Origin: Puniceicoccales bacterium Verruco_02
GTDB lineage: Bacteria; Verrucomicrobiota; Verrucomicrobiia; Opitutales; Oceanipulchritudinaceae
DNA length: 64,000 nucleotides
NCBI GenBank assembly: GCA_001604585.1
Contig: LVBW01000008.1
Coordinates: forward strand, 20,146-84,145
Direction: 5' to 3'
Below, piece by piece: positions 3,534 through 33,420 of this stretch. Each line of letters begins with the position of its first letter. Position 1 is the stretch's first letter. The notes beneath the pieces are model-generated. The model was not told the origin of the DNA, ran no database searches, and saw only the letters and a program-made list of their open reading frames with translations. Position numbers and translations under genes: made by a program.

Positions 3534-6089
3534 CTATCTGGCTATCTCGACCGGCATCACAACTTCCACCTTCATGGGGAAGCCCTTGCGCTTGCCGGGT
3601 ATGAAGGTCCACTTACGCGCCTCGGCCAATATGTGTGCAACGGCGGCGTCGCTAAGCGTGCGTCCGGCTATGATGCTGGCGTTCTCTACCTTGCCTTCGG
3701 CACTGATGATGAAGCGGATGAAGACCTTTCCGGGATCAAGGCTGATAAGGCCCTGTGGAACGCTGATCGTCATGCCTGCCGGGTTAATCGGAAGCTCGTC
3801 CAGATCCGTTGCCTTCTTGATCAGGCGGTCGAGGCTTAGCAGGGTGAATTCTTTGCTTGCTGAGCCGCCAAAGGGAATGTCGAGGCTGATGCTCTCCGGC
3901 TCATAGGAATCGAGCTGGACAGTGGCCTTGAAGTTACCCTCGGGCAGATAGTCCAGAACTAGCGGGGTGACGCCGAGCACATTGCCTGCCGATATGACGC
4001 TGGCACCGGCGGGGGTGCTGGTGATAGTAATCGTGCCGGGCAGATACTCGAAGCTGGTCTGACTGCGCTGTCCGGGGCGCACTTCCACCTTCTGCTCATA
4101 CTTCTTCCAGCCGGGGCGCTCGTAGGATACGAGGTAGCTGCCGGGCTTGAGAGCGCCGAGTTCCGCAGGGGTCACGCCTCGGAGTGCAGCCACGTTCTCT
4201 GCGCCTGTCTCCGGGCCGATGGGGGTAACCACGTAGGGCACGCCTTCGGGCGAGCTGCCTACGCTCACACTGCCCATTAGCATGTTGAGCACGATACCCT
4301 TCAGCTCCTGGGTCTGCCCACCGATGACTTCGACAGTGGCAGAATAGTCCTCGTAGCTGGCCTTGCGTATTGTAACCTCGCAGATGCCTTCGGGAAGATC
4401 GTAAACGATTGCCGGGGTGCGACCCTTGAGTTCGCCGTTTATGTAAACCTCGGCGTCGATGGGTGTGGACTGTATGGACACGCTGCCAACAAGGGGCGGA
4501 GGAGGTTCTTCCGGCGCGGCTGGCTCTTCTTGAACAATTTCCTCGACCGGGGCCACAGGCTCCGGCGCAGGCAGGGGCTCCGGCTCAGGCGCAGGCGCGG
4601 GCACCTCGACTACCGGTGCTGGAGCGGGCTTGTCCTTGCCACCGGAAAGAATGATGCCGACAACTGCGATGATGACCACCGCTGCGGCAATGCCGCCAAC
4701 GAGGATCATCTTGCCGCCCTTGCCCTGAGCGGCTGGCTTGGCCGGGACTGCGGGCTTCGGGGTAGCTGGCTTCGGGGCCGGGGCTGCTTTGGCCGGTGGT
4801 GGCTCTGGAGCGATGGATGCGGCAGATGGCTTTGCTGCCGGGGCGGGAGCTTTCTGCGGCTCGGGCTTTTTGGCAGGCTCAGGCTTGGCGGCAGGCTTTG
4901 GTGCTTCCTTGGCGGGAGCGGTGGGCTTGGCCTCCACGGGGGCCGGCTTGGCAGCGGTCTTTGGTTCCTCCTTGGCAGGTGTCGCAGGCTTTGGCGCTTC
5001 CTTGGCCACCGGCTTCGGCTCCTCTTTTACAGGAGCCTTTGGAGCAGGCGCGGCAGGTGCGGCCGGGGCCGGAGCCTTGGCAGCGGGAGCCGGGGCCGGA
5101 GTAGCCGGTTTGGCTACTTCTGCCGGAGCGGCTGCGGAAAGGCTGGCAAGGTCCGCATCGGCTGCGGAAAGATCACAGAGACTGGAGGGCGAGGAAAGGA
5201 GCCGCGAAAGACCTAGGAAGCTCTCTGTCATGTAAGCAGGCACAGAGGCACCCTGAGACTCGAACTGTGCCTTGTAGGGCAGAGTGGCTAGCTTAAGAGC
5301 ATCCGCAAGACGGCTGCTTAGTAGCACGCTGCGCGACGAAGGAAAGCCGCTGGCAATCACGTATGCGGGCTTTTCACAACCGGCGGAGGCGAGCTTTGCG
5401 CTCGCCTCTTGGGCAAGCTGGGCCACGAGCTTGGGCGAATGTTCTTCAAAGTCGATAAGGTCGCCGTAAAAGAGCTTGGCGGCGGAGCTTGGGAACTTCA
5501 GGTTAAGGGCTGCCATCACCTGCTCCAGAACGGAATCCGTGCCCGTGGGTATGGAACCGGCACTGGCCAGCGACGCTGCGGAAACAACGAAGAGCTGGGT
5601 TTGCCCTTGTTGTATGTCCATATACAGCACTGGCTTGTCTATCCCGCCGGAGCCAAGGGCGTCCTTCAGGGCCGATACGACATTGATGCCGCGGCAGAAG
5701 AGTTGCACCTGTGCATTCCCGGCAAAGCGGGCCTGAGCCATGCGCTGCTCAACGGCCTTGCGGCTGAAGCAGGCCACCTTTCCAGCCCCGAGGGCGGGCA
5801 CTGCGGCTAGGCGCAGGTCGTCTTTCTCAATCCCAAACTTTGCGGCTCCTTCGAGCATGACAGGGACCGGGCCGGGGCTTACCAAACCGAAAGGCATGGA
5901 TGCCTGCACAAGCAGTCTTGATGCGGACTTGGCAGCGTCCTTGAGTTCACCGGAGGCGTCGTCGAACTCCTTGCCGTTGACGGCCTGAAAGCTGCTAATT
6001 GTCAGCTTGTTGCCAGCGGCGGATGCCGTTCCGCACGAAAACTCGCGCTCGGAAAGAGTGAGGAAGGAAAGAAGCTCAGGGGCACTCAT
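3534..6089 (-). CDS. Multidomain membrane protein: PilM/actin-fold-like N-terminus, Ala/Pro/Lys-rich linker, one TM helix, PEGA-like repeats, TonB C-terminal-like domain
   Basis: 851 aa. N-terminus resembles PilM/GspL-type actin-fold proteins (PVLYMDIQQGQTQLFVVSAASLASAGSIPTGTDSVLEQV); long PAPAAKAPAPAAPAAPAPK-type linker; TM MILVGGIAAAVVIIAVVGIIL; PEGA-type GSVSIQSTPIDAEVYINGELKGRTPAIVYDLPEG and TITITSTPAGASVISAGNVLGVTPLVLDYLPEG; C-terminal GKVFIRFIISAEGKVENASIIAGRTLSDAAVAHILAEARKWTFIPGKRKGFPMKVEVVMPV, which is TonB-C-like. Confidence 0.7.
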   Translation of the reverse strand: MSAPELLSFLTLSEREFSCGTASAAGNKLTISSFQAVNGKEFDDASGELKDAAKSASRLLVQASMPFGLVSPGPVPVMLEGAAKFGIEKDDLRLAAVPALGAGKVACFSRKAVEQRMAQARFAGNAQVQLFCRGINVVSALKDALGSGGIDKPVLYMDIQQGQTQLFVVSAASLASAGSIPTGTDSVLEQVMAALNLKFPSSAAKLFYGDLIDFEEHSPKLVAQLAQEASAKLASAGCEKPAYVIASGFPSSRSVLLSSRLADALKLATLPYKAQFESQGASVPAYMTESFLGLSRLLSSPSSLCDLSAADADLASLSAAAPAEVAKPATPAPAPAAKAPAPAAPAAPAPKAPVKEEPKPVAKEAPKPATPAKEEPKTAAKPAPVEAKPTAPAKEAPKPAAKPEPAKKPEPQKAPAPAAKPSAASIAPEPPPAKAAPAPKPATPKPAVPAKPAAQGKGGKMILVGGIAAAVVIIAVVGIILSGGKDKPAPAPVVEVPAPAPEPEPLPAPEPVAPVEEIVQEEPAAPEEPPPPLVGSVSIQSTPIDAEVYINGELKGRTPAIVYDLPEGICEVTIRKASYEDYSATVEVIGGQTQELKGIVLNMLMGSVSVGSSPEGVPYVVTPIGPETGAENVAALRGVTPAELGALKPGSYLVSYERPGWKKYEQKVEVRPGQRSQTSFEYLPGTITITSTPAGASVISAGNVLGVTPLVLDYLPEGNFKATVQLDSYEPESISLDIPFGGSASKEFTLLSLDRLIKKATDLDELPINPAGMTISVPQGLISLDPGKVFIRFIISAEGKVENASIIAGRTLSDAAVAHILAEARKWTFIPGKRKGFPMKVEVVMPVEIAR

Positions 6090-6440: not shown

Positions 6441-7688
6441 CTAGTGCCCCATCCCACTGCCCTTGAACACAACCTGACCAAGGTTGAAGAGCGGGAAGTA
6501 CACTGCGAAAATGATGCCACCGATGACTACGCTAAGCATTGCCAGCATGAGAGGCTCGATGAGCTTGTTCACCACATCTGCCTGAGACTCCACTTCGGCC
6601 TCGGCGGCATTGGCCACACGGGTCAGTATCGGCCCGGCGGCACCGGTGTGAGAGGCAAGGCGCAGATAGGCGAGAATCTTGGGCGAGTCCTTGCCGAAAA
6701 TCTTCTGATTGTAGGAGAAGGCCACGTGCAGGTCGTCACCCGCGATGATTCGCTGCCCGGTCTCGAGGAGCGCGTCGCGCATCTCAGGGTGCCCGGTTGC
6801 AATGGCGGTGATTTCAAAGGCGCGCCCAATGCGCGTGCCGCCTGCAAGAAGCATGGAAAGAACTCGGAACATTCTGGCAATTAGCATCTTGCGATATAGC
6901 GGCCCCATGACTGGCGCACTAATCATGAACTTGAGCATGTAGCGGGACTGCATAATCTGCCCCCGCTTGGTGAAGATGTAGGTGCCAAGACCGAACAATA
7001 TTACCCAGAACATGGGCTGGTGGCGCACGATGTCGGAAAACTTCACCACTATCTGCGTCATCAGGGGAAGCTCGGCGTTGAAGCTGGCATACTGCTTGGC
7101 CATTGCCGGTATCAGCTTGATACTGATGAACATGACCGAGATGAACGACATTATGGCAACGACTATCGGGTAGGTAAGCCCCCCCTTTAGCTTGCTCGCA
7201 ATTAGCGCGGAACGCTCTTCGTAGATGGCCAGCGCGCTCATAACGCCCTTGAGGTCGCCGCTTGTCTCGCCAGCACGCAAGATAGCAATTGTTGACTCGG
7301 TAAAAATGTTGGGGAACTTCGTCATCGAGTCCGACATGGCCTTGCCGGAGCGCATGTCGCGCATCATTTCACCAATTACGCCGCGAAAGTAGGGGCTTGG
7401 CTGCTGCATGGCAACGATGCCCATGCTGTCCACCATGCTGGTGCCGATGCCAAGACATTCCACAATGCCCTGATAGAAGTCGGCCATGTTCTTGGATGAT
7501 GGGCGTTTGCGTACCTTCAGGGCAGCTAGGCCGAGGTCCAGAGGGGAGATTTCCTCCACGGTCACTATCTCGTCTGCCGATACACCGGCTCCAAGGAGCG
7601 CCGTCTCCGAATCATCGGAGAGGACGACCGTCTCGCGCTTGTTACCGGAATAGCTGTTCTCGGCGATAATCTTGAAGAGTCTGCTCAT
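6441..7688 (-). CDS. Type II secretion / type IV pilus inner-membrane platform protein (GspF/PilC family)
   Basis: 415 aa; LRAGETSGDLKGVMSALAIYEERSALIASKLKGGLTYPIVVAIMSFISV and a second repeat LRLASHTGAAGPILTRVANAAEAEVESQADVVNKLIEPLMLAMLSVVIGGIIFAVYFPLF. Confidence 0.92.
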   Translation of the reverse strand: MSRLFKIIAENSYSGNKRETVVLSDDSETALLGAGVSADEIVTVEEISPLDLGLAALKVRKRPSSKNMADFYQGIVECLGIGTSMVDSMGIVAMQQPSPYFRGVIGEMMRDMRSGKAMSDSMTKFPNIFTESTIAILRAGETSGDLKGVMSALAIYEERSALIASKLKGGLTYPIVVAIMSFISVMFISIKLIPAMAKQYASFNAELPLMTQIVVKFSDIVRHQPMFWVILFGLGTYIFTKRGQIMQSRYMLKFMISAPVMGPLYRKMLIARMFRVLSMLLAGGTRIGRAFEITAIATGHPEMRDALLETGQRIIAGDDLHVAFSYNQKIFGKDSPKILAYLRLASHTGAAGPILTRVANAAEAEVESQADVVNKLIEPLMLAMLSVVIGGIIFAVYFPLFNLGQVVFKGSGMGH

Positions 7689-7805: not shown

Positions 7806-10800
7806 TTAGTAAGTGTCCCCGCTCTCAACGAAACCGTTGAGGTCGAGTTCGCCACCTTCGAGGAGAATGTCCACGTTGTTCTCAATCTGGTTGTTGTTTT
7901 GAAGTATGATGCGGGATGTTCGGCGGCTTGTCTGTGCATTGGTGCCAGCAGTGGCCTGTTCTACGCAGGACATGATTATCGGGCCGTAGCCCGTGGCCTG
8001 ACGGAATATGAAAGCCCCGTCGGAATCCTTCAGCGGGCCCAGTTTGTTTAGATACAGGGTGCCTTCCTGCATGGTGTTGACGCCGTCGTAGGTATTGTCT
8101 TCGGCACCTGTAAAGGTAATGAACCCGTCGTCCTCGATGCGCACTCCTCCCTCGCCGGAGACTACGCCTGTGAGCACAATCGTGCCCTTGCCCGTCAGAC
8201 GCATACGGTAGCCGCCGTTGTTCACTGCGCCGTTGATAGTCAGTCTTGCCCCAGAGGTCGCGTTGAAGTTGAACTCCTCTGCGGCCAGCACATTGCTGTT
8301 TATGACATGGCGGAAGGCCGTTGCGTTGATGGATGCGCCTTCGGTTGTGTCGTTAAGTATGATGTCCGCTCCGCCAAGGCGGTACTCGATATCGGCGGCA
8401 GAGAGCGTGATCGTATGGAGCGACACAGTCTTGGTCAGGGTAACTTCCTCCAGCATAGCCCCATCCACAACGTCCACCGGGTGATACGCTGGGGTGTGCC
8501 AGAAAGTGTTCTGCCTTTCCTTGGATTCAAACTCCACGTCCTCGTATTTGGCCTCCTCGGGCGTACTGCCGACGAGCCAATTCATGCCCGTTTCCCAAAG
8601 CTTGTCGCCGCCGCCGTTGGTCCAGATGAGGCTCTTGAAGGTCGTCACGATGACGTTGCGTATGTCGTGGTTGGCGTAGGTGCCTCCAGTGCTGCTCGCA
8701 AAGCCGAACATGATGTTCTTGGGCCTGACCTGGCTTTTCAGGTCGGCCGTGAAGAGGGCCTCCACATCGCCGGTGCCGTACTTGATGAAGGCGGTAAGCT
8801 GGTTGTCGGGTGTGATGATTACAGACAGACGGCGAAGGTCGGGCTTGAAGATGGGCCTGACCTTGGCGTTGGGGAAGTTCATGTTGCGCTCCAGGTCTGC
8901 CACGTTGTCGTCGCCCGTGCCGACGAGATACTTGTAGTTACTGGCCTCGTCGCCGCGCACGGCTATTGCAGGGTAAATGAAGCCGGGGCCTCCTATGCGT
9001 CCTTCCGTCGGGTTGGAGTAATTACCCCAGTCGTCCATGCCCACGCCAATGTAGCCGCCGGATAGGCCGCCCAAGGGGTCTATCGGTGCGCCGCCAGCAG
9101 AGTATGTGGCATAGTCCACATAGCCGGGCCGGTCCATGGACTCGCTGAAGGAGCCGTGGTTGCCAATCGGGGCCGGAGAGGCGCTGTTGAAGGCGCAACG
9201 TTCGGTCTGGTAGGGGTCCACTCCGCTCTTGTTAAGGTCAAGGTAATCGACAATTACGCGGCGGTTCCAAGTGCCACCGTGATGGATGCAGATCTGCGAT
9301 GCATCGACATCCGCAGTGGTGTAAAAGTTGTGATAGGCAAACAGCGTCCCGAGGGTGAACTCCTGAACTGTGTATGAACCGGCCCTGTCCAAGTCTCCCT
9401 TGCCATAGATTCGCATGTATATCTTGTCTCCGGCGTTCTCGCTGAAGGCCCGCACTGTGATGAGAGTGCCTGTTGTGACGGGTATGGACGCGGTGACGGT
9501 ATTGCTGCTGGCCGTGTATGCGGAGCCGGAGTAGGCGCGCACTCTGTACTGGTAGCTCACGCCGGGGGTGGCTGCATGCGTGTATGTCTTGACGTTGCTG
9601 CCCGCGATGTTGACATCGGTCCAAGAACCAGAGGTACCTTCCCTGTACTGGACGCGGTGGCCGGTCTCGCCAGTGGCGTTGTCCGTCCAGTTGAGCACTA
9701 TGGCGGTGTTAGTGGCGTTGGGCGCGGCGCTAAGACCGGTCGGCGCGTTCATAGTCGAACTTGTGCCTAGGAAGGAGTCGGTCCTCGAAGTGTGAGTATT
9801 GAAGTCCAATGTGGCGTTGTTGCCTGCGAAATACTCGTAGTCCCAGCCATCCCATCCTGGAGATGGAGAAGTGGCGCAGTCCCTCGCCAGATAGGTAGTG
9901 CCATCTATCACCACATAATACACCATCAGGTAATTGTTACTGCGCCAGTCGGTCGTGTTTGTCTCAAACACGATCTTCAGATTACCCAGCGTGAACGCAC
10001 TCGCCTGCGAATGTGTGAACGTGACATCGAGGTCTCCGTAATCGCGATTCCTTGTATTGTATGTCTGGGTATTTACAAGCGTGGAACCAATGTAAACCAA
10101 CATGCGATTGGTAATGCCGTTAATATTAGCCGTACGAGGGTTCACGCGGATTGTGAAGCTGTGCGAGGTGACAATTGTCGAGTCCGAGCCATTGTCGGCA
10201 CTTGCCGCACTGGTTGCCGCGTTTGTCCAACTGGTCCAGTTGGTTGCTGCGCTCCTTACAGAGTTGAGCAAGGTTCCGGTCGCCCTCACGCGATAGTAAT
10301 AGGTGGTGCCGGGGTTAAGCCCTGTGTCAACGTAGCTGGACGTGTTGCGCGGCAGAGTGATCGACACGTAGTTGGCACCGCTTGTGGATGCCGATGTATT
10401 GCGCTCCAGTACGAAGGTCTCTTCGAGCACGGAATTGTCCGTCCAGTATATCATCATCGAGCTGGAGGACAGGGCGCGCGCAGTCAGAGAACTTGGCGCG
10501 TTGTTGATGCTGCTCTGACGGCTCGTGTTGCTCATGGGCGCGTAGCCGAGCGAGCCGCCAAAGCCGCCAACATGAAAGTTGTCCACATAGTCGGCATCGT
10601 AGATATAGAAACTGGTGCCGTCGGCAGACTTTGTGGGACTCTCGCCGCCGCCCGAATCCCAGTGGCTGAAATCGAAGGCTGCGTAAATGGTCAGCCCCTC
10701 GGACTTGACCGGTTTGCCCTTGTAGCGGATGTAGCCGGACTGGTTGCCGACGTTTTCTGTAAGGCGCAGCCAACCCGTCCCGTCGCTATCCTCGCCGCTG

Positions 10801-11024
10801 GCTGCGGTAAGGTATGGCCTTTTTTCGCCAAAATATGAGATGTTGCCCATCTCCCAGTCGCCGGGATTTTCGAGAGAGGTCCCCGTAAACGTCTCCTGCA
10901 CGCGGTTGAGCGTGTTCTCCACCTCCTGCGCCACAAGGGCGGGGCCAGTCGCAGTCGCCGCAATGGCGAGCAGAACCTTGAGAAGGCGGCTGGGGAGGGT
11001 GCTGGTAAAAATGTGGTGCTTCAT
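7806..11024 (-). CDS. Secreted lectin-like protein with FN3 and CBM-like modules and autotransporter-associated beta-strand repeats
   Basis: 1072 aa; signal peptide; DGTSFYIYDAD..VGGFGGSLGYAPM and GGLSGGYIGVGMDDWGNYSNPTEGR resemble bacterial L-type lectin motifs; FN3-type segments (GTTYYYRVRATG, GVSYQYRVRAYSG); the C-terminal GKGTIVLTGVVSGEGGVRIEDDGFITFTGAEDNTYDGVNTMQEGTLYLNK matches the autotransporter-associated beta-strand (PATR) pattern. Confidence 0.7.
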   Translation of the reverse strand: MKHHIFTSTLPSRLLKVLLAIAATATGPALVAQEVENTLNRVQETFTGTSLENPGDWEMGNISYFGEKRPYLTAASGEDSDGTGWLRLTENVGNQSGYIRYKGKPVKSEGLTIYAAFDFSHWDSGGGESPTKSADGTSFYIYDADYVDNFHVGGFGGSLGYAPMSNTSRQSSINNAPSSLTARALSSSSMMIYWTDNSVLEETFVLERNTSASTSGANYVSITLPRNTSSYVDTGLNPGTTYYYRVRATGTLLNSVRSAATNWTSWTNAATSAASADNGSDSTIVTSHSFTIRVNPRTANINGITNRMLVYIGSTLVNTQTYNTRNRDYGDLDVTFTHSQASAFTLGNLKIVFETNTTDWRSNNYLMVYYVVIDGTTYLARDCATSPSPGWDGWDYEYFAGNNATLDFNTHTSRTDSFLGTSSTMNAPTGLSAAPNATNTAIVLNWTDNATGETGHRVQYREGTSGSWTDVNIAGSNVKTYTHAATPGVSYQYRVRAYSGSAYTASSNTVTASIPVTTGTLITVRAFSENAGDKIYMRIYGKGDLDRAGSYTVQEFTLGTLFAYHNFYTTADVDASQICIHHGGTWNRRVIVDYLDLNKSGVDPYQTERCAFNSASPAPIGNHGSFSESMDRPGYVDYATYSAGGAPIDPLGGLSGGYIGVGMDDWGNYSNPTEGRIGGPGFIYPAIAVRGDEASNYKYLVGTGDDNVADLERNMNFPNAKVRPIFKPDLRRLSVIITPDNQLTAFIKYGTGDVEALFTADLKSQVRPKNIMFGFASSTGGTYANHDIRNVIVTTFKSLIWTNGGGDKLWETGMNWLVGSTPEEAKYEDVEFESKERQNTFWHTPAYHPVDVVDGAMLEEVTLTKTVSLHTITLSAADIEYRLGGADIILNDTTEGASINATAFRHVINSNVLAAEEFNFNATSGARLTINGAVNNGGYRMRLTGKGTIVLTGVVSGEGGVRIEDDGFITFTGAEDNTYDGVNTMQEGTLYLNKLGPLKDSDGAFIFRQATGYGPIIMSCVEQATAGTNAQTSRRTSRIILQNNNQIENNVDILLEGGELDLNGFVESGDTY

Positions 11025-15655: not shown

Positions 15656-16525
15656 TCAGGGCCTCGTGGGCAGGAAAAGGACAAAGCGGGAAAAAGTCTT
15701 GGCGCTATCGGCGCTGGACACCTCGTAAGGATAGGCAGTGGGGTCCGGGAACACCACTTGAGCGCCGAGGTCGTCGCTTATGGCCCAGTCCGTATCGCTG
15801 CGCAGCCAGTAATGCACCGCCCCGGGCAAGACGCCCACATCGTTGGCCACGCTGGTGGCCAGAGAGTATGCGTAGCTAAGCTCCTCGGACAGAGTGCCGC
15901 TAAGGTAGCAACGCACCGTGTAGGTCGTCATTCCCCCACTGTCGCTGCGGCGGCTATGGATTACGATGGGCACGTTACTCGTGCCGCTGATTACGAAAAT
16001 GGAAAAGTCCTCTGCGCTGCCAAGTGCGGACATCGTTACGCCGTTGGTCTGCAACTGGCTCTTGAACTGCGCGGCGCTTGTCAGGCGGGATGGGTGTATG
16101 GCCGCGAGCCACGCCAGAGAGGATGGCGCATATGTGTCCGGGCAGATAGTCGTTGCGTCGCTGCCCTGCCCCTGCTCGCTTCTCCCGCCTAGGACGAACA
16201 CGCTGGAAAGGCCGGGATTTGCCGGGCCTACGGCGTTGGATTGCAGCGCGTCCATGAGCGTGTTCTGGAGCTGCACGGCGTTGGGTAGCTGGCTGTAAGC
16301 CGGGGCAACGGGGATTTTCCGATTCCCCCAGGGCATGTCGTTTGCGGACTCACGCTCGTTAAAGGTGCCTGCCATGTTGGCGAACACGAACACCACCGAA
16401 CCCACGACAAGGGCACCCAACACGGAGGCCAGTATCAGCTCGATGAATGTGAAGGCACTGCGGCGGCGCGGCCTTTCGGCGCTGCGCAGCCCGCTCCGAA
16501 TGCTGAATCGTAGGGACTTGCTCAT
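15656..16525 (-). CDS. Prepilin-type N-terminal cleavage/methylation domain protein (pseudopilin)
   Basis: 289 aa; RRSAFTFIELILASVLGALVVGSVVFVFANM prepilin signal. Confidence 0.85.
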   Translation of the reverse strand: MSKSLRFSIRSGLRSAERPRRRSAFTFIELILASVLGALVVGSVVFVFANMAGTFNERESANDMPWGNRKIPVAPAYSQLPNAVQLQNTLMDALQSNAVGPANPGLSSVFVLGGRSEQGQGSDATTICPDTYAPSSLAWLAAIHPSRLTSAAQFKSQLQTNGVTMSALGSAEDFSIFVISGTSNVPIVIHSRRSDSGGMTTYTVRCYLSGTLSEELSYAYSLATSVANDVGVLPGAVHYWLRSDTDWAISDDLGAQVVFPDPTAYPYEVSSADSAKTFSRFVLFLPTRP

Positions 16526-20747: not shown

Positions 20748-22391
20748 TTACTTAAACAGATACTTGCGTTCGCCCTTGCTGCCGGGGATGTCGGCCTTGT
20801 TGCGCGATTCCAACTCGGCGTCGAGCTTCTGGAGCATGAGGTCGAGGTTGTCGGTGGTCTTCACTCCGCCAGTGTAGCCGTCCAGAATCGTTGCCGTAAT
20901 GAACATAACAAGGTGGCTCTTGGTGTCGGACGTAGTCTCGTTGCGGAAGAGGTAGCCGATGAGCGGGATGTCGCCAAGAAGGGGCACTTTGTTGTAGCCC
21001 TTGGTGTTGTGCAGCGAATCTAGGCCGCCGATGGCGAGCGTGTTGCCGCTGCCCACAATGGCCTGACCCGTATAGTCGCGGGAGGTCGTGATCGGGATCA
21101 GGTTGCCGCTGATGTCGGCCGTGCCGAGCATGTCGGAAACGTTGATCATGATGTTCAGCTCCACGTTGTTGCCGTCGAGGATGCGGGGCAGAAGGCTGAT
21201 TGTCGTGCCGATGGGGATGAACTGGGTCTCCTCGGTGGCTGTCGAGCTGCCGCCGCCGCTTGTGGAGCTACTGCCGCTCTGGAAGGGCTGCTGGGTGACG
21301 TTGCGCAGGACCACCTGACGGTTGTTCACCGTGACTTGGCTTGGATGCTGGAGGGAGTGGGACTGGGAGTCGGTCGATATGGCGCGCAGCGTGGCCAATA
21401 GCTGAGGCCCACTGAGGATGGCCGTATCGAGGCGGGTGTTCAAGAGCGTGGCCGCGGAGCTCGGCTCGACGCTGCCGGACTGCCTCTGGTTCTGAAGCGT
21501 CATTTCGTAGCCCTTCTCACCCAAGGAGTTACTCCAGTCAACGCCGAGCATGGTCGTCGGGTCGGAGTTGATCTCGACAAAGCGGGTCTCAAGGAGGATG
21601 AGCTTGCGCGGGCGGTCGATGGCCACGAGGTAGGTCTCGATCCAGAGGTGGTGCTCCTTGGTCGCGATGATGAACATGGCGTTCTGGTCGGGGTCGGCAA
21701 TGATGCGGCCCTTCAGCGTCTCCTTCTTCTCGGGCTGGATGTTGCCAAGGCGCATGGCCAGCTCGCTGCTGGGAACCCCTGCCAGAAGCATTGCCGCCGG
21801 ATTGGGGGCGCTCGTGGCCTCCTTCTCGTTCATGGCGAGGTTGGCAGGGTCCAGCTCCAGAAGAGCCTTGATGTCGTTGATGATCTTGCTCGGCGAAGAG
21901 GCAAAGGCCGTGCTGTTCACCGGCTGGGGCAGTGCGCTGCTAGTGTCGCGCCCGGCCGCAGTGTTGAGCGACTCCTGGTTTACGTTCACATCGTTAAGAT
22001 GCAGATGCTTCAGCTCATACACCTTCGGGAAGAGCTTGGAACGCTCCTCCTTCATGGGGCTGAAGTGCCAGAGTCCGTTCTCGTAAAGAGGGACGTAACC
22101 GTAGGTCTCGGCAACAAGCTGGAGAGCCTGAAAGGGATTGCCACGGATTGTCATATCCACAGTGGCGGCGTCCTTTGGCCGGGGAAGACCGATGTATGCC
22201 ATGTCCGACGCCTCGCACAATGTGCGAAGCACCTCTTCCAGCGGGGCCGACTGGAAGCGCATCGTAAGATCAGGCATCTTCATAAGCCGCTGAATCTCCT
22301 GCTCTTCAGCGCGCGAAATGTTGAGTTGTGCGCTGGCGTTGATGCTTGTGAGAGCAAGAGCCAGCAGGGCTATGGTATAGCGGGCTTTCAT
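20748..22391 (-). CDS. Secretin (GspD/PilQ family)
   Basis: 547 aa; signal peptide, STN-like N-domain (MRFQSAPLEEVLRTLCEASDMAYIGL), LILLETRFVEINSDPTTMLGVDW, GSGNTLAIGGLDSLHNTKGYNKVPLLGDIPLIGYLFRNETTSDTKSHLVMFITATIL. Confidence 0.93.
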   Translation of the reverse strand: MKARYTIALLALALTSINASAQLNISRAEEQEIQRLMKMPDLTMRFQSAPLEEVLRTLCEASDMAYIGLPRPKDAATVDMTIRGNPFQALQLVAETYGYVPLYENGLWHFSPMKEERSKLFPKVYELKHLHLNDVNVNQESLNTAAGRDTSSALPQPVNSTAFASSPSKIINDIKALLELDPANLAMNEKEATSAPNPAAMLLAGVPSSELAMRLGNIQPEKKETLKGRIIADPDQNAMFIIATKEHHLWIETYLVAIDRPRKLILLETRFVEINSDPTTMLGVDWSNSLGEKGYEMTLQNQRQSGSVEPSSAATLLNTRLDTAILSGPQLLATLRAISTDSQSHSLQHPSQVTVNNRQVVLRNVTQQPFQSGSSSTSGGGSSTATEETQFIPIGTTISLLPRILDGNNVELNIMINVSDMLGTADISGNLIPITTSRDYTGQAIVGSGNTLAIGGLDSLHNTKGYNKVPLLGDIPLIGYLFRNETTSDTKSHLVMFITATILDGYTGGVKTTDNLDLMLQKLDAELESRNKADIPGSKGERKYLFK

Positions 22392-25022: not shown

Positions 25023-27269
25023 CTAGGTTCTTCTAAGCCTCAGACACTCTTCGACGCTGGTTGCGCCAGAGAGCGCCCTTCGAAGGCCTATGCGAAGCAT
25101 CGGGTCGTACTGGTTGGCAAGGGCGAGCTGAAGCAGCTTGGCGCTGTCTCCGCCCTGAATTATGACATCGCGCATCGGGTCGTTTACCGGGGCCAGCTCC
25201 ATCACGGCGACTCGCCCGCGGTAGCCCGTGCCGAAGCACTCGGCGCAGCCGCGCTTGAAGAAGCTCTTGTGCGGGATGGCATCGGCCCCGGCGTCGAAAA
25301 AGCCCTCTTCGCGATAAAGATCCTCGATTTCGGGCGTCATGACGTCCTCGCGGCGGCAGCGGCAGAGGCGGCGCACAAGGCGCTGGGCGTGCAGGAGGAT
25401 TAGTGAGTCCGCAAGCATGTAGCTCTGAACACCCATAGCCAGAAGGCGGCCCACCGCGCGGATGGCGTCGAGCGAGTGCAGGGTGGTCAATATGAGGTGC
25501 CCGGTAAGGGCGGCCTCGGCAGCGGTGACGGCGGTCTCGCGGTCGCGGATTTCGCCCACCATGACCACGTCCGGGTCGGCACGCAGGATGCGGCGAAGCA
25601 CCGTGTAAAAGGTGAGATCCTGATTTGGGTCCACCTGGGTCTGATTAAGGCCCTCCATCTCGTATTCTATCGGGTCCTCAATGGTCTGCACGTTGATCGT
25701 GCCCTTGTTAAGGGCGGATAGAACGGCGTACAGGGTGGTGGACTTACCCGAGCCTGTGGGGCCTGTCACAACGATCATTCCCTGTGGCTTGGCGATTACG
25801 CCCTGAAAGATCTTGAGCTGCTTTGTGGGCAGGCCCATATCCTCCAGCGAGCGTATGTTCGAGCCTTTGTCCAGAATACGGATGGTGATCTTCTGGAACT
25901 TGCGCCTCCACGGAATGGCCGACACGCGCGCGTCGATGACGCGCCCGGCGAACTTCACCGAGAAGCGGCCGTCCTGCGCGTCGTTGTTGTTGAGCGTCAT
26001 GTTACAGTGGTTCTTGATGATTGCCACCACTGGCATGAGCATCTTGATGGGGCCTGTGTAAATGGTCGTGAGCTGGCCGTCGATGCGGGTGCGGAAGCGC
26101 GTCTGCTCGCGGTACTGCTCGATGTGGATGTCGGAGGCCTTGCCGGTGATGGAGTTGTACACCAGCCACTCCAATAGCTCCTCGGGGCTTGTATTGCTGC
26201 TCTTGGGGTTAATCAGGCGCGCCGAGTCCTCGTTGATCGTGATGTCGGCGTTGAACTGGCGAAGCGCCCTTTCCTCGGCACCGCTGTCTTCCTCCACACT
26301 GGTCATCAGGCTGCCCGTGTTCTCGAAGCGCTCAAGGCGCATGAGAATGTCGTTGGCACGGGCCTGTACGCGGACCAGTTCCTTTTCGAGCTTGAGGCGG
26401 TTAATTAGCTGGTCCTCGCACTCAAAGTCGTCCAAACGCGACACCGCCACGTAAAACTCCTTCTCCGTCTCCAGAAAGCAGAGCACCTTGTAGCGGTCCA
26501 CAAGGTTTCTCGGGATTCGCTCGTAAAGGCGGGGCGAGATGTCCGTCTCGCGAATGTCCATAAGGGGCGAGCGTTTGCCGATAAAGTCGATGGCGGCGGT
26601 GTACCCGGCGGGAATCGTAAGGGTGCCCTCCTCTATGGACTCTTCGAGGAATGTGCGGTCTTCCTGGCTCATGGGCAGGGCCGAAAGCATCCACTTCATG
26701 ATGGGGATGACGCGGTCATCCTCGTCGAACTCGTCCAGCTCCTTGCGCAGCTCGGCCACCTGCTGGGACTCTTCTCTATACAGGCGCGGGCGCACCTCCC
26801 TCTCTGCAAGAAAACGAAGCGTCCCCTGAAGGTAGGTGTGGTACATCTTGGGCGTCAGCCAGACCATCGGGCAGGCTTCCGGGTCTATGCCCCAGCAGTT
26901 GCGCGAAGGCGGGCAGCAGTGCCCCATCACAAGGAGCGGCCCCACCTGCCCGACGGGCACTGCGGGCCAGTCGTTTACGGGCAGGCTCACAAGGTCGTCC
27001 ATCGACAGGCGGTGGTAATCCTTGGCGTGCAGCTCCAGCAGCTTCCAGAAAGTGACGAGCACATCGCCGTTAATCTCCCTCGTGGACGAGGGATAGGGCA
27101 ATACGCCGTGTTCGGTCCGCATCGCGTGGATTATCTGGCCGGGGTTCTGCCCGATGGACACGACAAAGGAAATGCTCTGCTCGTACGTCTCGGTCTGATC
27201 GCCTTCGATGCAGGTGAGAAGATCCGCGTACTGGATTGTCTGAATGCTGGTGTCGGGAAGCTTGGCCAT
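25023..27269 (-). CDS. Type II secretion / type IV pilus assembly ATPase (GspE/PilB family)
   Basis: 748 aa; Walker A VVTGPTGSGKSTTLYAVLSAL, Asp box TIEDPIEYEMEGLNQTQVDP, Walker B LRADPDVVMVGEIRDRETA, His box TGHLILTTLHSLDA, GCAECFGTGYRGRVAVMEL. Confidence 0.96.
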   Translation of the reverse strand: MAKLPDTSIQTIQYADLLTCIEGDQTETYEQSISFVVSIGQNPGQIIHAMRTEHGVLPYPSSTREINGDVLVTFWKLLELHAKDYHRLSMDDLVSLPVNDWPAVPVGQVGPLLVMGHCCPPSRNCWGIDPEACPMVWLTPKMYHTYLQGTLRFLAEREVRPRLYREESQQVAELRKELDEFDEDDRVIPIMKWMLSALPMSQEDRTFLEESIEEGTLTIPAGYTAAIDFIGKRSPLMDIRETDISPRLYERIPRNLVDRYKVLCFLETEKEFYVAVSRLDDFECEDQLINRLKLEKELVRVQARANDILMRLERFENTGSLMTSVEEDSGAEERALRQFNADITINEDSARLINPKSSNTSPEELLEWLVYNSITGKASDIHIEQYREQTRFRTRIDGQLTTIYTGPIKMLMPVVAIIKNHCNMTLNNNDAQDGRFSVKFAGRVIDARVSAIPWRRKFQKITIRILDKGSNIRSLEDMGLPTKQLKIFQGVIAKPQGMIVVTGPTGSGKSTTLYAVLSALNKGTINVQTIEDPIEYEMEGLNQTQVDPNQDLTFYTVLRRILRADPDVVMVGEIRDRETAVTAAEAALTGHLILTTLHSLDAIRAVGRLLAMGVQSYMLADSLILLHAQRLVRRLCRCRREDVMTPEIEDLYREEGFFDAGADAIPHKSFFKRGCAECFGTGYRGRVAVMELAPVNDPMRDVIIQGGDSAKLLQLALANQYDPMLRIGLRRALSGATSVEECLRLRRT

Positions 27270-29796: not shown

Positions 29797-32700
29797 ATGT
29801 CCCCAAAGAAGATACTCGTCCTGAAGCAAGACGCCACCGTAAGAAAACTGCTCAGTCTTCTTTTTTCGGACCGTGGCTGTGTCCTAAGCTGCCATGCAGA
29901 GCTTGAAAGCGCCCTTTCCGCCATAGCCGCCCAGCCACAAGATCTTTGCATAGTGGACCTTTGCGAAGGTGACGACAAGCTGGCATGGGTACGCGCCGTC
30001 AAGGACAAGACACCCGGGGTGCCCGTTGTAATAGTATCCTCGCGCCTTGACCTTCGCACTGCGGTGGAGGCAATGCGCCTTGGAATAGCAGACAGCCAGT
30101 ACGACGATCTGGACATAGGCGAGTTTTCCGGGACCATATCGGGCCTACTTGGAATAGCCAAAAACGACTTCATAAGCCCCGAGGAACTCAAGTCGCTTAC
30201 GCGCATCTTCGGCGCTGCACACAGCAATGCGGAGTATTCCCCGCGCCAGCGCAACAAAACCCTTGTCGAAAGCGGAGCGAACGCCGAGCAGATGGCCGCC
30301 GTCCGCAAAGAGGCAGAGGCCCTTCTGGCCCGCCTGCAAAGCGACAGGGCCAGCCTCCAGAACAAGGAGGCGGAGCTGACCCGCTTGCAGCGCGAACTAG
30401 ACAGCGCCAAGGAGCTGTGGACAACGCGCGAGGCAGAGATAGAGCAAGTCGAAAAACAGGCCAACGAACGCATACTTGCCCTGCGCGAGGAGCAGAAGGC
30501 ACTGGGCGGACAGCAAGACCGCCTTACAGAGCGCATCGCAAAGCTCGGCCTCGAAAACAAGACCCTTTCCCAGCAGCGCGACGGCCTTCAGGCCCGCACC
30601 GAGAAACTCAAGGCCGAGGTGGAGGCCCAGTCTGTAGCCGTTCAGGAACTGGAAGCACGGCAAGCCAAGGCCCAGAGCGCACTGGACGAAATCGAAAAGC
30701 GCCAGAAAGCCATCGACGAAGAGCGCCGCCAGCATCAGGAAGCCCTCGCCAAGCTCAAGAACGAGGAGCAACTCTGCGCCGTGCGCCTAGCAGAGTTTCA
30801 GGAACAAATGCAGGCCTCCCGCCGCGAGCTTGAGGCCGAGACGCGCAAACGCGCGCAGGAACTAGTCTCCCGCGAGAGCGCACTTGCCAAGGCCCTCGAA
30901 GAGGTGAAACGACGCGAGGAAGAGGTCAGCAAGGCCGAAGTTCGCAAGATAGAGGCCGAGCAGGCCCTCAAGAAGCTGGCCCAGGAAAGCGAACTTATAG
31001 AAGTTGAGCGCATCAGCCTGAGCGAGGAAACCGTCCGCCTGCGCAAACAGCAGCAGGAATTTGAAGCGGTGCGCAAGGCCTTCGATCAGCAAAAGGCCAT
31101 GAGCGAGGCCGAACTGGAAGCCGCGAACGCAGAGCTAAAGTCCGCCCGCGAGAAGTTTGAAAAAATACAGGCCCAGTTCGAAAACGACCGCCACAGCGCC
31201 CTTGCCGACCTGAAGGCCCAGAACAAGGCCATCTTCGAGGAAAGTGCAAAACTCGAAGCCACCCGCAAAGCCTTCGCACAGGAGCAGGAAATTATCCGTG
31301 CCGAGTTCGAGGCACGCACTCAGGCCCAGCGCAAGGAAAACGCCGAAGAGCGCAAGATAATCGAGGAAGAGGAGCAGCGCATCCAGCAACTGGCCAAAGA
31401 TCAGGAAGCAAACCGCCTCCTGCTAGACACCCAGCGCGAGGAACAGCAGCAGCGCGAAAAGACCCTCTCGCAAGCCGAGGAAGACTTTGCCACCCGCGAG
31501 CTGGAGCTTGCGCAAAAGGAAAAGAACAACGCCCAGCAACAGCGCGAACTGGACCGCCGCCAGAGCGACTTTGAACAGCAGCGCCGCAAATACGAAGAAG
31601 AGCTATCCGAACGCGAAACAACGCTCCAAATAGAACAGGGCGAACTCAAGCGCCGTGCCGAGACGCTCTTTGCGCAGGAAATGGACCTGCAACAGCGCGA
31701 AGCCCTCGTGGCCGACCTAGACGCGCGCAAGGCCGGTGCCGAAAGAGCCATCGCCCAGCTGGAACAGCAGCGTAGCCTGCTCGAAATTGAAAGGGCCAGC
31801 TTCGAAGACGAAGTAAAGAGCTTCAACCAGCGCCAACAGGCCCTCGCCGCCGAGCGCAAAGCCTTCGAAAACGAGCGCGAAATAGCCAACGCCGAACTGG
31901 AAGCTGCCCGCGCCGAAATCGAGGCCGAAAAGGCGGGCATAGACAAGCGCCGCCAGCGCCTTGAGGAAGACCGCCACGCGGCCCTAGCCCAGCTTAAAGA
32001 GCAGAACAGGAAATTTGCCGAACAGGCCGAACAGCTCGAAGCCGAACGCACGGACTTCCAACTGCGCAGGACAAAAGAAACTGCCGAGTGGGAAGAGCGC
32101 GTGCAGGTGGAGACGCTTGAACTGACGGGACTACGCGAGAGCGCCACACGCAAGCAGGCCGAGGCAGAGGAAATCCTCAAGCGCATGAACAAGGAACGCG
32201 CCCTGTTCGAAGTGCAGGCCGAGGAACACCACGCCCGAGAACAACACATCACCGAAACCGAAGCCCGACTGGCCGAGGAAAAGAAGAAGCTGGCCGAGGA
32301 CAAGACCCGCGCCGAGGAACGCGCCGCCAAGATAGAGCAGCAGATAGCCGAGTTCTCCCGCCAGCGCCGCGAGATGGAAATGTCCCTCATCGACAGGGAA
32401 ACTGGCATCGCCGTACGCGAAAAGGGCCTTGGAGAGCGCGAAAACGCCCTTCAGCACCTTGCCAAGGAAATTGCCGAAGGTCAGCAGAGACTCGAAGCCA
32501 TCGACAAGCGCCAGAACGAGATACACGATCAGATGGTCGCCCTCGAAAGAAAGCGCAAAGACATCGAGGAAGAGAACAAGAAGCTGAAAGTCGAAGTCGA
32601 AAAGCTCGAACAACGCCGCGAAATCTTTGACAAAGCCTGCCGCGACTTTGAAAACAGCCGCGAAAAGAAGCTCTTGGAAATCGAGTCCGAACGCGAGATG

Positions 32701-33420
32701 ACAAAGAACCGCGCCCGCGACCTCGAAGCGCGCGAGAAAAAGAACGAGAAGGAGCGTCATGAGCTGGAAAACATGATGGACACCTTCAAGCAGGACCGTC
32801 TGCATCTGGACCAGGAACTGAAGAGTTTCGAAATCCGCCGCAAGGATCAGGAAAAGGAACTCTGGAAACTCCGTGGCGACATCGAGCAGGAACGCGCCGA
32901 GCTGGAAAAGGAACGCGCACGCATCGACAACGAGCGCAAGGAGATACAGGAATCCTCCATGAAGGCTCTCGAAACCGAGAAACGCATACGCGAGGAACAG
33001 GCCGTACTGCGCCGCCAGAAGCTCGACCACCTGAAAAAAGCTCAGGAACTGGCCGAGGAGAGCGATCAGATCTCGCAGGCACAGGCCCGCATAGCCAAGG
33101 AACAGCGCGAGTTGGAAGCTCTCAAGGCAGACGCGGACAGTATCTTCGAAGCCAAGAAGGACGAACTGCGCAGGGAAATGGCGCAGGAGGTGGAAGCTTC
33201 GCTCGAAGCACGCAAGCGCAAGATCGAGGAACAGCTCGACGAGCTGGAAGCCACCAAGAAGGAAATCGCCCATCAGCAGAAAAAGCTCATCGAAGAGAGC
33301 CGACGCCTCTTGGAGCGCGAGGAAGCGGTCGTGCAGATGGAGGACAACCTGCGCGCCTCCGGCAAGAGCGGAAACTCCGGCGAAAAGCCCGGTGGTGGCA
33401 AGCTCAACGCCGCAGGATAG
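29797..33420 (+). CDS. Degenerate receiver-like domain fused to a very long coiled coil
   Basis: 1207 aa; N-terminal MSPKKILVLKQDATVRKLLSLLF...LCIVDLCEGDDKLAWVRAV...PVVIVSS fold pattern, then about 1050 aa rich in Glu/Lys/Arg/Gln/Ala heptads. Confidence 0.8.
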   Translation: MSPKKILVLKQDATVRKLLSLLFSDRGCVLSCHAELESALSAIAAQPQDLCIVDLCEGDDKLAWVRAVKDKTPGVPVVIVSSRLDLRTAVEAMRLGIADSQYDDLDIGEFSGTISGLLGIAKNDFISPEELKSLTRIFGAAHSNAEYSPRQRNKTLVESGANAEQMAAVRKEAEALLARLQSDRASLQNKEAELTRLQRELDSAKELWTTREAEIEQVEKQANERILALREEQKALGGQQDRLTERIAKLGLENKTLSQQRDGLQARTEKLKAEVEAQSVAVQELEARQAKAQSALDEIEKRQKAIDEERRQHQEALAKLKNEEQLCAVRLAEFQEQMQASRRELEAETRKRAQELVSRESALAKALEEVKRREEEVSKAEVRKIEAEQALKKLAQESELIEVERISLSEETVRLRKQQQEFEAVRKAFDQQKAMSEAELEAANAELKSAREKFEKIQAQFENDRHSALADLKAQNKAIFEESAKLEATRKAFAQEQEIIRAEFEARTQAQRKENAEERKIIEEEEQRIQQLAKDQEANRLLLDTQREEQQQREKTLSQAEEDFATRELELAQKEKNNAQQQRELDRRQSDFEQQRRKYEEELSERETTLQIEQGELKRRAETLFAQEMDLQQREALVADLDARKAGAERAIAQLEQQRSLLEIERASFEDEVKSFNQRQQALAAERKAFENEREIANAELEAARAEIEAEKAGIDKRRQRLEEDRHAALAQLKEQNRKFAEQAEQLEAERTDFQLRRTKETAEWEERVQVETLELTGLRESATRKQAEAEEILKRMNKERALFEVQAEEHHAREQHITETEARLAEEKKKLAEDKTRAEERAAKIEQQIAEFSRQRREMEMSLIDRETGIAVREKGLGERENALQHLAKEIAEGQQRLEAIDKRQNEIHDQMVALERKRKDIEEENKKLKVEVEKLEQRREIFDKACRDFENSREKKLLEIESEREMTKNRARDLEAREKKNEKERHELENMMDTFKQDRLHLDQELKSFEIRRKDQEKELWKLRGDIEQERAELEKERARIDNERKEIQESSMKALETEKRIREEQAVLRRQKLDHLKKAQELAEESDQISQAQARIAKEQRELEALKADADSIFEAKKDELRREMAQEVEASLEARKRKIEEQLDELEATKKEIAHQQKKLIEESRRLLEREEAVVQMEDNLRASGKSGNSGEKPGGGKLNAAG

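Follow-up and report, generated by a model that had tools for sequence, protein, structure and literature searches.

Encoded within the 64-kb window, the whole stretch of DNA analyzed here, is a putatively secreted protein of 1072 residues whose L-type-like lectin domain is, by profile comparison, interrupted at one loop by a block of four domains. Judged in this way, the architecture is a domain insertion that is both real and unusual. The split itself, the complementarity of the two halves and the conservation of the gene neighborhood are established at the sequence level. The insertion had previously been placed, in a sequence-only reading, at positions 9105-10529, which correspond to aa 166-640 of the 1072-aa protein. 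Listed in Table 1 are the boundaries adopted here, together with those of the neighboring genes. In what follows, G000 denotes this genome, G002 a congener, G001 another genome of the same genus, and G010 a member of a related genus. The Opitutales MAG entry L021 carries the same protein as G002, and the two are apparently one record.

Table 1. The split-lectin gene, its parts and the surrounding cluster (positions are those of the window).
Feature	Position	Strand	Basis
Whole gene, secreted split-lectin protein, 1072 aa	7806..11024	(-)	Single open frame; orthologue L021/L031 has the same architecture
Putative Sec signal peptide, aa 1-32, ...LLAIAATATGPALVA	10929..11024	(-)	Read directly from the sequence
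L-type lectin domain, N-terminal half, aa 42-165	10530..10901	(-)	PF18483 positions 20-91; A1 profile 4-115
Inserted block FN3-CBM60-FN3-CBM60, aa 166-645, 480 aa	9090..10529	(-)	Missing from the same loop in ~30 unbroken homologues
FN3-1, aa 174-273	10206..10505	(-)	Pfam fn3/Pur_ac_phosph_N; PDB FN3 matches
CBM60-like module 1, aa 287-414	9783..10166	(-)	Four-unit profile to 2xhh/2xfd; orthologue to 2xfd and PF16841
FN3-2, aa 425-516	9477..9752	(-)	Pfam fn3; AF2 pLDDT mostly 70-87; Foldseek FN3 matches
CBM60-like module 2, aa 519-645	9090..9470	(-)	Two-sequence profile to 2xhh/2xfd
L-type lectin domain, C-terminal half, aa 646-805	8610..9089	(-)	PF18483 positions 98-212; A1 profile 107-266
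C-terminal beta-strand-rich tail, aa 806-1072	7809..8609	(-)	Alignment to L023 and others
GspF/PilC-type inner-membrane protein	6441..7688	(-)	Pfam T2SSF
Large prepilin-like protein, 1004 aa	11061..14075	(-)	N_methyl/TIGR02532
Prepilin-like protein	15656..16525	(-)	Weak N_methyl
Secretin, GspD/PilQ-type	20748..22391	(-)	Pfam Secretin
GspE/PilB-type ATPase	25023..27269	(-)	Pfam T2SSE, MshEN

The two lectin-like flanks had been proposed to be halves of one domain, and the profile searches bear this out. Searched alone, the N-terminal flank matched the Pfam family PF18483 over positions 20-91 with an E-value of 1.2e-3, and the C-terminal flank matched it over positions 98-212 with an E-value of 0.1. 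When the flanks were joined with the insert removed, the match extended over positions 21-212 of 215 with an E-value of 4.9e-8. This complementary coverage, along with ~30 homologues in which the flanks abut in frame, confirms them, at the level of sequence profiles, as complementary parts of a single L-type lectin domain split at one loop. The joined lectin scored 33.5 bits against a curated cut-off of 78.3, and the unbroken orthologue from G010, at 30.3 bits, likewise fell below it; the window lectin is by this measure related to PF18483 rather than a curated member. A Pfam search of the intact 1072-aa protein returned no lectin match. A profile designated A1 was built from 11 sequences, namely the joined window lectin and ten uninterrupted homologues. 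All 11 match PF18483 (best E 9e-12), and the matches of the profile in the PDB are legume lectins and ERGIC-53.

An alignment with pea lectin places D135 and G157, from the N-terminal half, at Asp81 and Gly99, and D664 and N668, from the C-terminal half, at Asp121 and Asn125. All four columns are invariant in A1. We take Asp81, Gly99 and Asn125 (pea-lectin numbering) to be sugar-site residues and Asp121 to be a calcium ligand. Note that the equivalent of the legume manganese ligand, Glu119, is a glycine in the window lectin. The break point lies in the loop that follows GGYLG (Gly99) and precedes the VAVEFDTF..N strand, with the insertion ~5 residues past the Gly99 equivalent. Presumably this loop borders the lectin sugar site, and the insertion would then sit beside it.

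The inserted block was expected to contain two FN3-like segments, each followed by a module resembling CBM36/CBM60-type carbohydrate-binding domains. Indeed, Pfam fn3 (PF00041) scored the protein at 45.2 bits (cut-off 25) over two stretches, with the fn3 match at aa 427-511 and a Pur_ac_phosph_N match at aa 180-268; the FN3 identity of both segments is firm. For the modules that follow, a profile of four CBM units, two per genome, matched the vCBM60 structures 2xhh/2xfd with an E-value of ~5e-8, the second-unit profile alone matched the same structures with an E-value of 7.5e-6, and the first unit of L021 matched 2xfd with an E-value of 6.8e-5. The vCBM60 structures were the only significant PDB matches for all three queries, in keeping with the resemblance first noticed. 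The profile match covers the domain including its C-terminal 'sEWL..NGYI' tail. Against Pfam CBM60 (PF16841), the first unit of L021 gave an E-value of 4e-5 and 24.1-24.5 bits, with a cut-off of 28.2, and the CBM units of the window protein gave no match. The CBM60 assignment, which is putative, is based on the profile matches to the vCBM60 structures. By eye, the alignments reveal that the ND..RD..VDY acidic residues of vCBM60 are only partly present in the window units. Since several are missing, calcium-dependent binding may be lost, and binding should not be assumed.

In shuffle comparisons, FN3-1 and FN3-2 scored z values of 6-11 against each other and 15-17 against their own orthologues, and CBM-1 and CBM-2 scored 2-4 against each other and 7 and 20 against theirs. 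The individual domains are closer to their orthologues than to one another, and thus the four-domain block predates the split of the two species. The tandem duplication of an FN3-CBM unit that had been suggested is therefore supported for the FN3s but hardly for the CBMs, and it is possible that the two CBM60s were acquired separately instead of by duplication of the whole unit. In a search for a CBM60 donor among 55 relatives, PF16841 was found in only three other genomes, in proteins of 776-850 aa that contain neither a lectin nor an FN3 domain; by eye, these look like DUF1592-type planctomycete/verrucomicrobial cytochrome-like proteins. The GC content of the insert modules is 0.51-0.62 versus 0.58-0.60 for the lectin halves, with no clear foreign base-composition signature. 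There are no DNA repeats at the insert junctions, the one 73% repeat being the common FN3 motif.

Insertion on this scale was, as had been supposed, unusual among the genomes searched. A whole-protein search of 55 relatives revealed flanks that adjoin in single frames in G010, G050, G043, G046, G025, G007, G012 and G005. In profile searches the lectin domain was located in 26 of 384 class genomes, 23 of 388 phylum genomes (the two sets overlap) and six of 17 family genomes; across all searches, it is unbroken in ~30 genomes, whereas a domain-sized insert occurs only in G000 and G002. The inserts are 480 and 482 aa in length, respectively, and occupy the same profile position. A scan of viral contigs yielded no homologues. 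Elsewhere in the family, lectin genes broken by frameshifts or a stop codon were observed in G263 (L053/L061), G277 (L056/L060) and G125 (L036). In G089 (L075, C57, 5992-6483) a lectin N-terminal half ends at the insertion loop and is followed by an oxidoreductase-like gene on the opposite strand, which suggests a truncation or a misassembly.

The lectin halves of the G000 and G002 proteins are 61% and 71% identical, and their inserts are 33% identical. Retention of the halves while the insert drifts is what continuing constraint on the split lectin would produce. In a tree of 31 lectin domains, the three closest sequences are arranged as (G010,(G000,G002)) with support values of 98/95 and 100/99. 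As G010 is sister to the G000/G002 pair and all other rows are unbroken, a single gain on the branch leading to that pair is, by parsimony on this supported tree, the simplest reading. The common ancestor of G000 and G002 thus probably acquired the insert in one event.

We consider it likely that the protein is a secreted, adhesin-like split lectin with a singly gained insert, up to three glycan sites, and export by a pilus or type II secretion-like apparatus. The FN3-CBM60-FN3-CBM60 block would have entered once, directly behind the sugar-contact loop that holds the Gly99 equivalent, and the two halves of the lectin most likely continue to form one jelly roll. The FN3 domains would serve as spacers that hold the two CBM60-like modules away from the glycan-binding face, and the resulting head could offer up to three glycan sites, should each module bind. 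Such a multi-site adhesin would probably rely for its export or display on the type IV pilus/type II secretion-like machine whose genes surround it. Weighing against this reading are the low confidence of the structure model of the whole region (described below), the PF18483 score below the cut-off, the glycine at the Glu119 equivalent, the acidic residues missing from the CBM60-like units and the cluster of G001, which has no lectin gene.

The lectin gene lies between the large prepilin gene and gspF in G000, G002 and G010. In G010, the nearest uninterrupted relative, the gene occupies this position in the same pilin-to-GspF cluster but has no insert. The GspF protein is 82% identical to that of G002, 72% to that of G001 and 52% to that of G010. 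In G001 (L074, C53, 5812-9778) the cluster is present, the prepilin gene and gspF adjoin, and the lectin gene is absent, probably through loss; the lectin protein is thus not an essential part of the machine. In alignments with L023 and others, the short C-terminal tail of the 1072-aa protein is related to the first part of the beta-strand-repeat tails that lectin homologues carry, those of L023 and L026 containing TIGR02601 repeats. PEP-CTERM was not found in the tail of the window protein.

Several further features of the window are recorded here for completeness. The 1004-aa prepilin-like protein has a beta-strand-rich C-terminal part; its relatives are in G002 (43%) and, at weaker similarity, in G010 and G001. 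Downstream of gspF, at 3534-6089 (-), is an 851-aa protein with PEGA domains, a proline/alanine-rich stretch, and then a TonB-C-like end. At 29797-33420 (+) is an ORF of 1207 aa with a response-regulator match at its start only, and long ORFs on the opposite strand overlap it.

It is possible but rather unlikely that the lectin protein travels with this cluster as a passenger, being secreted, or attached at another site on the cell surface, with no functional connection to the pilus-like machine. The cluster of G001 without the lectin gene would suit such an arrangement, as would the homologues of other genera with their long beta-strand repeats and, in some cases, PEP-CTERM. Set against these are the position between the large prepilin and GspF genes common to three genomes, the lack of PEP-CTERM in this subgroup, and a gap of only 36 nt to the upstream prepilin gene, which is on the same strand.

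The insert could alternatively be a structural or regulatory spacer whose FN3 and CBM60-like modules no longer bind glycans and serve only to extend, cap or mask the site of the lectin. Its low identity (33% versus 61-71% for the lectin), the missing vCBM60 acidic residues, and the failure of the window protein itself to match Pfam CBM60 all point in this direction. Both modules are still recognizable as CBM60, however, the vCBM60 C-terminal tail is present, and the architecture is kept in two species; we regard a pure spacer as unlikely. Still more doubtful is an arrangement in which the insert, beside the sugar loop, and the lectin would form a composite recognition head, with the CBM60 modules reshaping or gating the lectin site to give the pilus-like machine a glycan grip of multiple specificities that arose through one insertion.

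It is very improbable that there is no nesting at all, the flanks being unrelated domains or one side holding a full lectin. In its favor are the lack of a lectin match for the intact protein and of a confident structure for the nested form. An AF2 model of aa 30-840 (811 aa), calculated from a two-sequence alignment of the window protein and L021, had a pLDDT of 40, with values mostly of 20-40 in the lectin halves; two sequences being too weak an alignment, the nested fold is inferred from sequence. A model of FN3-2 with CBM-2 reached a pLDDT of 66, and in Foldseek it matched FN3 pairs and a single FN3 domain (6hyf, TM 0.73 by target), with CBM60 absent among the matches listed. The complementary PF18483 intervals of the two flanks and the ~30 uninterrupted homologues nonetheless refute both alternatives at the sequence level. 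Finally, an assembly chimera or frameshift artefact, conceivable for a draft genome of 101 contigs with frameshifted or truncated family copies in G263, G277, G125 and G089, has a negligible probability, for the gene is one open frame of 1072 aa, and the independent second copy in G002, 43-47% identical and with the same architecture, insert length and gene order, excludes it.

Domain insertion is a known phenomenon. No report of an insertion of this kind in a lectin was found in the literature searched, which left out many subscription papers. In the preferred reading of a split, adhesin-like lectin, the domain accommodates a block of four modules beside the presumed sugar site, and two of the four are putative carbohydrate binders. 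The uninterrupted form, which a related genus has kept at this locus, provides a before-and-after pair with which to ask whether an insertion of 480 residues is merely tolerated by the lectin or put to use. In Verrucomicrobiota, the arrangement would also connect glycan recognition with a type IV pilus/type II secretion-like machine.

Like the L-type lectins (PF18483, the legume lectins of PF00139, and ERGIC-53), the window lectin displays profile similarity over the whole domain and retains the equivalents of pea lectin Asp81, Gly99, Asp121 and Asn125. It differs in having 480 aa interposed in one of its loops, in scoring below the Pfam cut-off and in the glycine at the Glu119 equivalent. With the uninterrupted Verrucomicrobiota proteins that combine a lectin with beta-strand repeats (G050, G043, G046) it shares the N-terminal lectin and the type of C-terminal tail, but those proteins lack the insert, have far longer repeat tails and, in some cases, carry PEP-CTERM. 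The surrounding GspE, GspF, secretin and prepilin genes are those of type IV pilus/type II secretion systems, of which the lectin gene, absent from G001, is an optional member. CBM60 modules (PF16841; vCBM60, 2xfd/2xhh) bind sugar via calcium (PMC4444583). The window modules match their profile over the domain, tail included, but are located inside a lectin rather than appended to an enzyme, lack part of the acidic residues and fall below the Pfam cut-off. Carbohydrate-binding PA14 modules are inserted in glycoside hydrolases (PMC4444583), and there, too, a carbohydrate-binding module lies within its host domain instead of being appended to it; in the window protein, in contrast, the host is the lectin itself, and the insert holds four domains.
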